From assembly GCF_013046825.1 (NCBI RefSeq), contig NZ_CP053187.1:2452001-2516000 (forward strand): 64,000 bases of DNA, given 5' to 3'. Shown one piece after another: positions 16,291 to 20,003 of this stretch (the stretch's first letter is position 1; each line of letters begins with the position of its first letter). This DNA comes from Turicibacter sanguinis. Lineage in GTDB: Bacteria; Bacillota_I; Bacilli_A; MOL361; Turicibacteraceae. The position numbers were made by a program, and so were the translations under genes. Under the pieces are notes generated by a model that was not told the DNA's origin, did no database searches, and worked only from the letters and a program-made list of their open reading frames with translations.

Positions 16291-16293
16291 ACC

Positions 16294-16324
16294 AAAAAGG
16301 CGTCCGATACGGATGCCTTTTTTA
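16294..16324 (+). terminator. Intrinsic terminator after the MATE gene
   Basis: AAAGGCGTCC/GGATGCCTTT stem with one G-T pair, then a T-run. Confidence 0.8.
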
Positions 16325-16424
16325 TATGAGAAGCCAAACAACGATGATATACAACGATTGAAATATTTGATAAAATAGATAAGTTCAGATTAGTTTTGTA
16401 AAACTGTAAAATTTTTGAACTATC

Positions 16425-16616: not shown

Positions 16617-16703
16617 AATCCTCAGATAGATTCATGAGTGTGAAATAGAGTTCAGTTTCAATCAAGTAGAAAAAGAAGTAAAAAGGTAGAAAGGGGAATG
16701 GTG

Positions 16704-19241
16704 ATGAAAATATTAGTAACTGAAATGTTTTTGAGCCATATCCCTCGTGGTAAAGAAACATTTGTGTTGCAAAAAATGAGTCAATTCGTGAAAGATTATG
16801 TAGAATATAAGTTTAACATGTCTGCGATGCGTGGAGGCGTGTCTGTGCGTGAAATTAAACATAATCGCAATGGGTTGCGTATTTTTAAGCTTCGAATTAA
16901 TAAAGGTGATCGGATCTTGTTTACCTTTGATACAAATCGTGTTCGAAGTGAGTACCGACAAGCCATTTTGTTTTTAGATTATTGTCATCATGATGATCAG
17001 GCAATGCGAGGACGACAAATTGGAATCAAAGAAGATAGGATTGAGGTTGTATCTTCTGAAGAAGAGGTAGTCGATGCCTACATTGATCAACAATATGAAA
17101 ATTTTGATTATGATCCTAATGTCATCATTACCAGAGTCATAAACGTCGAAACGATGAATCAGTTACTTGACGATCGAGATGAAAAGGCGATTTATTATTT
17201 AAATGATGAACAGTTTCAATGTCTGGCGCCAACTGAGTCGCCAACGTTTTTATTCGGAAGTGCCGGAAGTGGAAAAACCACGATTAATATTCATAAAGCG
17301 TATTTACTTGCCTTGCAACCGATTCGTTTAGCTTATTTCACGTATTCTTCTTATTTAGTTGAAGATGCAGTTAAATTATTCAAAAAAATTGTGGAAGATT
17401 CTGATGAGGTGAAAGCGGATGATATTTTAAAACGGGTTCAATTTCTTCACTACAATCACTTTGTTTCCACAGAGGTTCGAGCGTATCAAATGATGACATA
17501 CGAAGCATTTCGCTTATGGGCAATTGAACGCCAACCGATGCTAATTAAACAAATCGGATTAGATGTTTATGATTTGTGGAAAGAAATTCGGGGCATCATT
17601 AAAGGAATGATTCCAAAAGAATGGATTCGTTATGCCATCCCTATTTCTGATTTTCCATATCCGTCAGAGGTCATGGAAGTGATGTTGAAAAAAGGCTTAG
17701 CTCATGTTGAAAATGACGTGTTAATCTTACATGCTGATGCCTTATATGAGGCAAAAAAACATTATTTAGATCGCTATACCCTACAAGCGATTATGCTTAT
17801 GCATCAACTGCTTGATGAGTATTTATTCACACATAAAATGATTGAAAAAGAGATCTATCTTTCACTTGATGAGCAGTATTGTGTGTACGAACGAAAACAA
17901 CGTGAACTGTTGTATGAGTTAGCGGTGCGTTATCAGTTCTTTTTAGATGATGAGAAAAAAGTGGATGAGAACGATCTATCAAGAGCGCTGCTTCAAAAAA
18001 TAATCAAAAAAGAAGTGAATTTATTTGATTATGTCATTGCTGATGAAATTCAAGATTTGACGGAGATTCAAATTTATTGTTTGATTCGCTTGTCACGAAA
18101 TCGTAATCAACTGTTATTTAGTGGAGATATTAATCAAACCATTCGACCTACTTATTTTCATACAGGACGCGTTGAAAGCATTATGAAAACATCGAATACC
18201 CATTTAGGTTTTTTGAAACATCAACTGGTGAAAAATTATCGTAGCACAAAAGAGGTCGTAGATTTAGCGAATAAAGTCGTGGATCTTCGGATCAAGCGCT
18301 TAGGATTAAATAAAAAAAATGATTATCATGAAATTGCTATCCGTGGTCTTTCACATGCGGTTTATTATTTACAGAGCACGAATCCTCAAAATGTCATTAA
18401 GCTCATTGAGACGGGCTTAAATCGACATTATGTTGCGATCGTCGTGCCAGATGAAGCTGAAAAACGGAATTTAGAGCGTTTAACCCAAGTGAAAGGGGCC
18501 GTCTTTACGGTTGAAGAAATTAAAGGAATCGAAAAAGATTACATCATTTGTTATAATGTGATGTCTAAGTTTAAATCGCTTTGGGAAACCATCTTAAATA
18601 CCGATGTGATGCATCAAAATCAATACCGCTATTACTTTAATTTATTGTATGTTGCGATTACAAGGGCTCGTCAGCACTTATGTTTTGTAGAAGAGGACAT
18701 GCCGCCGTCATTATTTGAGTATCTGAGTGATGAACTCTTAATTTTTTCTGAGTTTGATGAATCGGCTTTAAAACTAAGTCAAATTTCAAGTGATAATCAG
18801 TTCTATAAAGAAGCAACATTATACGAACGTCGCGAATTATATGAACAGGCTATTACCGAGTACGAGCTATCGAAATTAGAGGTGGCGAAACATGATATTA
18901 AACGGTGTCAGGCTTTGATGAAAAATAGAGAAGGGCAGCATATTGAAGCGGGAATCGAGCTCTTAAACTTAAAAGAATTTGAACAGGCGGCAAACTGTTT
19001 TAGACAGGGGCAAGATGTGCTCCGCTATTTACAGGCATTGGTTTATCAAGATTGTCCGTTTGAAAAAATACAAGAAGAATTATTAACCTTTGGCATTGAA
19101 GACGTGATTAGTTATGTCTATTTACAACCAACGCGAGTCTCGTGGCTTCGCCGTTTTAATAAGTTATATGCCATTCATTTAACTAAGCGAACACAAGTCA
19201 TCGATCACCTAATGGAATGTATTGATGAAATGAAAGGGTGA
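16704..19241 (+). CDS. UvrD/RecB-like superfamily 1 helicase with RelE-like N-terminal domain and TPR-like C-terminus
   Basis: An 845-aa protein. Residues 1 to about 110 resemble the RelE/ParE/HigB toxin fold (…AMRGG…VREIKHNRNGLRIFKLRINKGDRI…). The helicase core follows: Walker A GSAGSGKT at 185-192, Walker B ADEIQD at 446-451, a motif IV-type NYRST and motif VI-type YVAITRARQHL. The last 130 residues or so are helical repeats resembling TPRs (YERRELYEQAITEYELSK…LNLKEFEQAANCFRQG). The start at 16704 is chosen over 16698 because the SD (AAGGGGA) abuts 16698 but is about 7 nt from 16704. The next gene overlaps or abuts it, so the two form one unit. DNA repair or anti-phage defence are both possible; the RelE-like call is by eye. 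Confidence 0.75.
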   Translation: MKILVTEMFLSHIPRGKETFVLQKMSQFVKDYVEYKFNMSAMRGGVSVREIKHNRNGLRIFKLRINKGDRILFTFDTNRVRSEYRQAILFLDYCHHDDQAMRGRQIGIKEDRIEVVSSEEEVVDAYIDQQYENFDYDPNVIITRVINVETMNQLLDDRDEKAIYYLNDEQFQCLAPTESPTFLFGSAGSGKTTINIHKAYLLALQPIRLAYFTYSSYLVEDAVKLFKKIVEDSDEVKADDILKRVQFLHYNHFVSTEVRAYQMMTYEAFRLWAIERQPMLIKQIGLDVYDLWKEIRGIIKGMIPKEWIRYAIPISDFPYPSEVMEVMLKKGLAHVENDVLILHADALYEAKKHYLDRYTLQAIMLMHQLLDEYLFTHKMIEKEIYLSLDEQYCVYERKQRELLYELAVRYQFFLDDEKKVDENDLSRALLQKIIKKEVNLFDYVIADEIQDLTEIQIYCLIRLSRNRNQLLFSGDINQTIRPTYFHTGRVESIMKTSNTHLGFLKHQLVKNYRSTKEVVDLANKVVDLRIKRLGLNKKNDYHEIAIRGLSHAVYYLQSTNPQNVIKLIETGLNRHYVAIVVPDEAEKRNLERLTQVKGAVFTVEEIKGIEKDYIICYNVMSKFKSLWETILNTDVMHQNQYRYYFNLLYVAITRARQHLCFVEEDMPPSLFEYLSDELLIFSEFDESALKLSQISSDNQFYKEATLYERRELYEQAITEYELSKLEVAKHDIKRCQALMKNREGQHIEAGIELLNLKEFEQAANCFRQGQDVLRYLQALVYQDCPFEKIQEELLTFGIEDVISYVYLQPTRVSWLRRFNKLYAIHLTKRTQVIDHLMECIDEMKG

Positions 19242-19246
19242 GGGAA

Positions 19247-19978
19247 ATGGACGTCGAATTTTTAGATTTAATTAAAACGTTTGAGAAAACGTTAAAACGA
19301 ATTGAAGTGTTAGATCATAAAGTGACATCATTTAAAGAAGTATTGGAAACATTAAAATCAAATTTAGATGAACTCGTTGAAATGGTCATGCTTGAAGAAA
19401 TTGTGGAGTTGTCACAAAACGGGACGCAAAAAATTAAAGCCTTAAATCATGAAATGAACCAGTTGATGAGTGCTTATTCATCAGTGGCACAACTTCAAAA
19501 ACTAAGTGAGGAAGAAGCCAACAGATTTCAAAAGCTAGAGCAAGGAGTGGCAGAACTGAAACACCTAATCCAAAGAAAAGCGCCTCAAATGTCTTCAAGA
19601 CTACTTGAACTGGCAGATGAGATTTATTATGTGGATGAGGAGTCAAATCTTTGCTGTGAATCAAACATCATCAATCAAACACTAATCACAACAGGTGTTA
19701 AAAGCATTGCTCAACATCAAGATTTATTATTTGTTAGTTGTGAACAGGAGTTAGTGGTGATGAAAGACAAACAGCTTTTAGTCAGTTTTCCGATTCAATG
19801 TGAGAGTTTTTTTGTAGAAGGCTATCTCATTTACTTCTTAGACCATCAAATGTTAAAACAGTGTCATCTGTTAACACAAGAAGTCACGGTGATTGAAGAG
19901 GACGTGCTATTCATGATGCCACAACATGACAAAATCTTGATTAAAACCACGTCGGGATTAAAAAGACTAGCCTATTAA
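19247..19978 (+). CDS. Coiled-coil protein, partner of the helicase, unknown function
   Basis: A 243-aa protein. Residues about 5-120 are strongly helical with heptad-like Leu/Val spacing (coiled coil). Residues about 125-243 look like consecutive beta strands, a possible small propeller or WD-like segment (LFVSCEQELVVMKDKQLLVSF, then YLIYFLDHQML…). No family recognised. The ATG at 19247 lies 5 nt after the helicase stop codon, and its SD (AAGGGTGA) is inside the end of the helicase gene; a GTG at 19238 would overlap by 4 nt. The tight coupling implies the two proteins work together. Confidence 0.65.
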   Translation: MDVEFLDLIKTFEKTLKRIEVLDHKVTSFKEVLETLKSNLDELVEMVMLEEIVELSQNGTQKIKALNHEMNQLMSAYSSVAQLQKLSEEEANRFQKLEQGVAELKHLIQRKAPQMSSRLLELADEIYYVDEESNLCCESNIINQTLITTGVKSIAQHQDLLFVSCEQELVVMKDKQLLVSFPIQCESFFVEGYLIYFLDHQMLKQCHLLTQEVTVIEEDVLFMMPQHDKILIKTTSGLKRLAY

Positions 19979-20003
19979 AAAAGAGCTCGATTGAGCTCTT
20001 TTT
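19978..20003. terminator. Bidirectional terminator between convergent genes
   Basis: AAAAAGAGCTC/GAGCTCTTTTT with a 4-nt loop. Confidence 0.85.

Follow-up and report, generated by a model that had tools for sequence, protein, structure and literature searches.

A RelE/YoeB-like domain fused to a UvrD-type helicase and paired with a coiled-coil protein in Turicibacter sanguinis

Background

Most of what is known of RelE-type toxins concerns small proteins that an antitoxin keeps silent, or domains fused to cyclic-oligonucleotide sensors. In YoeB, R65 and H83 are essential, H83 acting as the general acid, and the RelE counterparts R61 and R81 are essential as well; RelE itself uses Lys52, so a missing equivalent of the YoeB Glu46 is not decisive for the superfamily (PMC12620021).

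The locus described here lies in the genome (3.0 Mb, single contig) of the gut bacterium Turicibacter sanguinis and joins a domain of this type to a UvrD-type helicase, followed by a gene for a coiled-coil protein. Its domains are known, and their arrangement is apparently undescribed: no description of a RelE–UvrD helicase fusion was found in the literature searched, most subscription journals being outside its scope, and the portions seen of papers that use overlapping terms do not discuss one. Database records say only “UvrD-helicase domain-containing protein”, “tetratricopeptide repeat protein” or “ankyrin repeat domain-containing protein”, because the N-terminal domain has diverged beyond the reach of Pfam or NCBIfam searches with a single sequence. 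The anatomy of the pair is secure; its function is what we infer.

Locus organization

The features of the pair are listed below in the coordinates of the window, the whole stretch of 64,000 nucleotides that was analyzed.

16293–16325, + strand: intrinsic terminator of the upstream MATE gene (stem-loop and T run, -18 kcal/mol, z -6.2)
16704–19241, + strand: protein with RelE-like domain, UvrD-type SF1 helicase and helical tail (845 aa)
16704–17018, + strand: RelE/YoeB-fold domain, residues 1–105 (profile, AF2 model, Foldseek)
16911–16913, + strand: Arg70, invariant in 39/39 N-domains, aligned with YoeB R65 and RelE R61
16989–16991, + strand: His96, invariant in 39/39 N-domains, aligned with YoeB H83
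17256–17279, + strand: helicase motif I (Walker A) GSAGSGKT, residues 185–192
18042–18056, + strand: helicase motif II DEIQD, residues 447–451
18123–18143, + strand: helicase motif III GDINQTI, residues 474–480
18648–18671, + strand: helicase motif VI YVAITRAR, residues 649–656
18771–19238, + strand: TPR-like C-terminal tail, residues ~690–845 (sub-threshold TPR_2, E 0.35)
19238–19978, + strand: partner protein with coiled coil and beta domain (likely start ATG 19248)
19978–20003, no strand assigned: bidirectional-looking terminator at the operon end (11-bp stem and T run, -14.5 kcal/mol, z -6.3)

Terminators on both sides set the helicase and partner genes apart from their surroundings. The helicase reading frame opens at 16698 or 16704 and runs to 19241, and its 845 residues are counted from the second ATG, the start kept in relatives. 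For the partner, a GTG at 19238 (4-nt overlap with the helicase stop) and an ATG at 19248 (6 nt past the stop) are available; the ATG is the likelier start, judged from the N-termini of relatives (MDVEFLDLI, MEPEFLDLI, METEFLDLI, MDREFLALI), and a GTGAGGGA-like ribosome site lies upstream of it. The partner is probably translationally coupled to the helicase gene. The original prediction, which had the second gene beginning within a few nucleotides of the helicase stop, gave correct coordinates for the pair, 16704–19978 (reading frames 16704–19241 and 19238–19978).

A RelE-superfamily domain at the N-terminus

The first 110 residues of the 845-aa protein form a true RelE-superfamily domain, to which YoeB is closest. 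The Turicibacter domain as a single sequence has no significant match in Pfam or NCBIfam, and single family members lean to the ParE_like, HigB, YoeB and Txe models of these collections (E ~0.002–0.007). From 34 to 39 aligned N-terminal domains of relatives, a 34-sequence profile was compared with 177,635 PDB sequences and matched YoeB (7v5y, E 9.9e-5; 7v6w, 1e-4) and RelE3 (3bpq, 2e-4). The AlphaFold2 model (pLDDT 86.4, pTM 0.82) has the element order beta-alpha-alpha-beta-beta-beta-beta-alpha, and its top 23 Foldseek matches, with probabilities up to 1.00 and TM scores by target mostly of 0.5–0.69, are all RelE-superfamily members, among them YoeB, YafQ, RelK, HigB, Helicobacter RelE-like toxins and Cami1 (8phj). 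The RelE fold is thus assigned from two agreeing lines, a sequence profile and a predicted structure. The original prediction had called the first 110 residues RelE/ParE-like, proposed comparing a predicted structure with RelE and HigB, and suggested that the helicase carries its own toxin-like domain; profile, model and structural matches bear it out, with a YoeB-type domain fused to an SF1 helicase.

The 39 N-domains compared come from many phyla, and all of them retain Arg70 and His96; position 64 is Arg or Lys in 34 of the 39. The position of YoeB Glu46, the general base, is occupied by Lys or Arg in 37 of 39 domains, and no equivalent of the C-terminal Tyr was identified. Judged by its residues, the site looks RelE/YoeB-like and is plausibly active, although catalysis is not assured, given the Lys/Arg replacement and the lack of an identified Tyr equivalent.

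Evolutionary rates were compared between the window and its nearest sister locus (L045), using only relative dN because synonymous sites are near saturation. The dN was 0.09 for the RelE domain, 0.21 for the helicase core and 0.29 for the tail; in the partner it reached 0.40 for the coil and 0.94 for the C-terminal part, and the flanking MATE and AIM24 genes gave 0.17 and 0.12. No part of the operon evolves more slowly than the RelE domain, on which purifying selection is stronger than on the remainder, and the domain is not a relic. At the C-terminal end of the partner, change is nearly unconstrained or driven by diversifying pressure.

These data bear on a rather doubtful explanation, in which the RelE-fold domain is catalytically dead and serves to dock or to bind nucleic acid, placing a DNA helicase on, for example, replication, transcription or ribosomal complexes, within a housekeeping DNA/RNA machine. 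The Lys/Arg at the general-base position would fit, as would UvrD and PcrA being the closest solved helicases, the fixed housekeeping locus in the genus, and relatives without a partner, which under this explanation need no stand-alone antitoxin. Yet the invariance of exactly the catalytic Arg and His of YoeB exceeds the needs of docking, and the RelE domain evolves more slowly than the motor.

Helicase core and tail

The helicase core matches PF00580 (8e-13, Pfam) and has intact, conserved motifs (GSAGSGKT, DEIQD, GDINQ, EEIKGIE, YVAITRA), with motifs I, II, III, V and VI of UvrD/PcrA-type SF1 enzymes all present, confirming the complete SF1 helicase that had been read from the sequence. The tail, described at first as TPR-like repeats, is conserved in Turicibacteraceae and Peptostreptococcaceae, but Pfam support for the repeats themselves is weak. 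Several other UvrD-family helicase genes occur in the same Turicibacter genome.

The coiled-coil partner

The AF2 model of the partner comprises a helix (residues 3–114), a disordered stretch and 10 strands at 162–245, in agreement with the coiled coil and beta-strand repeats first proposed, with an overall pLDDT of only 64. By Foldseek, the strands of this low-confidence model resemble two or three beta-propeller blades, a match that the weak model leaves suggestive only. The matches include 2yms, a propeller of short chains, so the partner may form a propeller by oligomerisation. The beta domain (19721–19978), which evolves very fast, has room for about two to three blades only. Pfam/NCBIfam matches to KIF21A, FUSC and SMC-like families were set aside as coiled-coil noise, and the same scans revealed no recognised antitoxin family or DNA-binding domain.

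Compared with the Turicibacter partner, those of Peptostreptococcaceae score 24 bits (E 4e-6) against 13.5 bits for the best reversed decoy, and that of Caloramator matches weakly (E 1.5e-3); the Elusimicrobia, Acholeplasma and C. algoriphilum partners gave decoy-level scores or were not listed. Among the coiled-coil partners, homology was accordingly accepted for Peptostreptococcaceae and, weakly, for Caloramator, and for no others. Beyond these groups, any kinship would rest on position and coiled-coil character.

The properties of the partner also bear on a derivative of type II toxin–antitoxin modules, with the helicase-fused RelE domain as toxin and the coiled-coil partner as antitoxin. 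In higBA, the toxin gene likewise comes first and the two genes overlap; the partner is helical, like RelB-type antitoxins, and the toxin domain has the RelE fold. Against this, the partner has no known antitoxin or DNA-binding domain and is far longer than RelB or YefM, many homologous helicases have no partner at all, and the Turicibacter site is fixed, making such a derivative very improbable.

Distribution of the helicase and of the pair

A single-protein search of genome contigs returned no match; an alignment query used instead found 45 loci. The pair is present in 6 of 8 Turicibacteraceae genomes, with helicase orthologues 55–72% identical in five other genomes, and related helicases occur in Bacillota, Fusobacteriota, Elusimicrobiota, Cyanobacteria and Proteobacteria. 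Prevalence differs among groups: 8/71 Peptostreptococcaceae, 27/61 Fusobacteriaceae (including all of the first 14 listed, which are Cetobacterium-like), 5/77 Elusimicrobia and 111/5426 E. coli genomes, the last mostly chromosomal and, in those whose surroundings were inspected, within IS-rich islands. Plasmid copies were found in Paraclostridium, Cetobacterium, Shigella and Crinalium.

A coiled-coil gene directly follows the helicase in Turicibacteraceae, Romboutsia/Intestinibacter, Caloramator, C. algoriphilum, Acholeplasma and Elusimicrobia, and recurs in most Bacillota that have the helicase and in Elusimicrobiota; its start lies at -14 to +12 nt from the helicase stop in Peptostreptococcaceae, Caloramator, Clostridium algoriphilum, Acholeplasma and Elusimicrobiota. 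The survey of homologues thus upholds the two-gene pair of the original prediction. No coiled-coil partner was seen beside the helicases of Fusobacteriota, Proteobacteria, Cyanobacteria or the Paraclostridium plasmid, and partner-less helicases are mostly longer, several carrying TPR or ankyrin tails. Partner presence on the helicase-core tree requires three changes against a shuffled mean of 13.2 (0 of 500 shuffles were as low); a single gain and two losses could account for them.

Several lineages have variant architectures. Intestinibacter-type genomes (L113:5681–10492; also L114, L115 and L117) encode a 1241–1284 aa Sel1-like-repeat/RelE-like/UvrD protein, its repeats named by eye and its RelE-like domain assigned by profile; at a conserved chromosomal site in L113–L115, a 345–355 aa coiled-coil partner begins 0–9 nt past its stop. 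E. coli and Shigella plasmids and chromosomal islands (L048:4251–7163; L112:9938–12850) carry a RelE-like/UvrD/ankyrin protein, some copies of which adjoin inovirus-Gp2 and AlpA-type genes. In Cetobacterium (L061:3276–5111, L046:8058–9890), a conserved ~611-aa protein with a helix-turn-helix like sigma-70 region 4 precedes the helicase, and several strains have a gene annotated as [FeFe]-hydrogenase after it, with a 4-nt overlap.

Genomic context

Wherever flanks were read within the genus Turicibacter, the pair occupies a single site, lying downstream of NhaC, from which MATE separates it in most cases, and adjoining AIM24, beyond which the closest relatives have DUF3810 and adenine deaminase. 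It is a fixed, vertically inherited chromosomal site and genus-core. Around it lie housekeeping genes whose order is conserved, and for these PADLOC gave no defence family beyond a generic radical-SAM match; the helicase itself matched no PADLOC family beyond generic helicase motifs. A reading as DRT was dismissed, its matches being to generic motifs only.

Location in defence islands or on mobile elements is not seen in Turicibacter and is seen in part of the relatives, on plasmids and in islands. In Intestinibacter bartlettii (L052:3221–9559), two dynamin-like GTPases, of which one matches the LeoBC defence model, are encoded immediately upstream of the helicase pair. Elsewhere, the neighbours include an AAA/DUF3226 pair matching PDC-M38 (L054/L055) and a Mokosh-like helicase (L063).

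A role in anti-phage or anti-plasmid defence would have the variable partner or tail sense infection and unleash the RelE domain, shutting down translation. Patchiness between genera, as in Peptostreptococcaceae, Elusimicrobia and E. coli, suits such a role, as do the plasmid and island copies, the LeoBC-, PDC-M38- and Mokosh-like neighbours in other lineages and the fast-evolving C-terminus of the partner. We nevertheless consider it unlikely, with a vertical Turicibacter site among housekeeping genes and no defence genes, a genus-core helicase in Cetobacterium-like genomes, only generic helicase motifs in PADLOC and no relatives in the viral contigs and phage records searched. The original prediction of a defence or repair module stands as to the two-gene pair and loses support as to its role: proximity to defence genes does not hold in Turicibacter, where the fixed vertical site without defence neighbours leaves a defence module unsupported, and no association with DNA repair was seen.

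Proposed function

A stable site with ordinary neighbours leads us to favour a part in RNA surveillance or stress over dedicated phage defence at this locus, and we tentatively read the pair as a two-component, translationally coupled module of this kind, at somewhat less than an even chance. The RelE domain would bind and probably cut RNA, most likely in the ribosomal A site, in the manner of YoeB and RelE; the helicase, driven by ATP, would load onto or remodel the nucleic acid in that complex; and the coiled-coil protein may scaffold or gate the enzyme, its fast-evolving end sensing a trigger. With the RelE domain fused to a helicase, the toxin-like nuclease would be held in cis by a motor and not by a classical antitoxin. 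A cellular function fits the genus-core vertical site in Turicibacter and the helicase's presence in all of the first 14 Fusobacteriaceae genomes listed, which are Cetobacterium-like. Against the surveillance or stress module, UvrD-type helicases usually act on DNA, and many family members have no partner.

A bolder version, which we regard as distinctly improbable, would make the family a widespread, undescribed bacterial mRNA-surveillance machine of SF1 helicase, ribosome-dependent endonuclease and coiled-coil adaptor, an independent analogue of Upf1 plus a decay endonuclease. A RelE domain long kept in cis with an ATP-driven helicase, its Arg and His intact, would mean that a toxin fold was recruited into a motor-controlled RNA or ribosome machine, and the Arg70/His96 prediction is directly testable.

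Comparison with known systems

The N-domain shares fold, strand order and the aligned Arg and His with the ribosome-dependent mRNA interferases YoeB, RelE, YafQ and HigB. Those of the YoeB/RelE kind are ~90-aa stand-alone toxins, whereas here the domain belongs to an 845-aa helicase; the general-base Glu of YoeB is replaced by Lys or Arg, and there is no cognate YefM or RelB antitoxin. With the toxin fold inside a helicase and a partner that matches no antitoxin family, the pair is not a type II toxin–antitoxin system by the usual definition.

All core motifs are shared with the SF1A helicases UvrD, PcrA and Rep, PF00580 being the best Pfam match and PcrA and UvrD the closest PDB chains. Similarity to PcrA and UvrD is nonetheless confined to the motif regions, and the RelE domain, TPR-like tail and coiled-coil neighbour are additional here.

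Gabija likewise has a UvrD-like helicase within a two-gene unit, and GajB is the top PADLOC match. However, the best GajB profile is covered only at positions 211–372 of 594, and a coiled-coil protein takes the place of the GajA OLD nuclease. Gabija was rejected on these generic motif matches and on the lack of an adjacent GajA (OLD ATPase-TOPRIM) in the neighbour annotation and PADLOC scan.

Cami1-type CARF-RelE proteins, represented among the structural matches by 8phj, also fuse a RelE effector to a larger regulatory protein; there the regulator is a cyclic-oligoadenylate sensor, whereas here it is a helicase.
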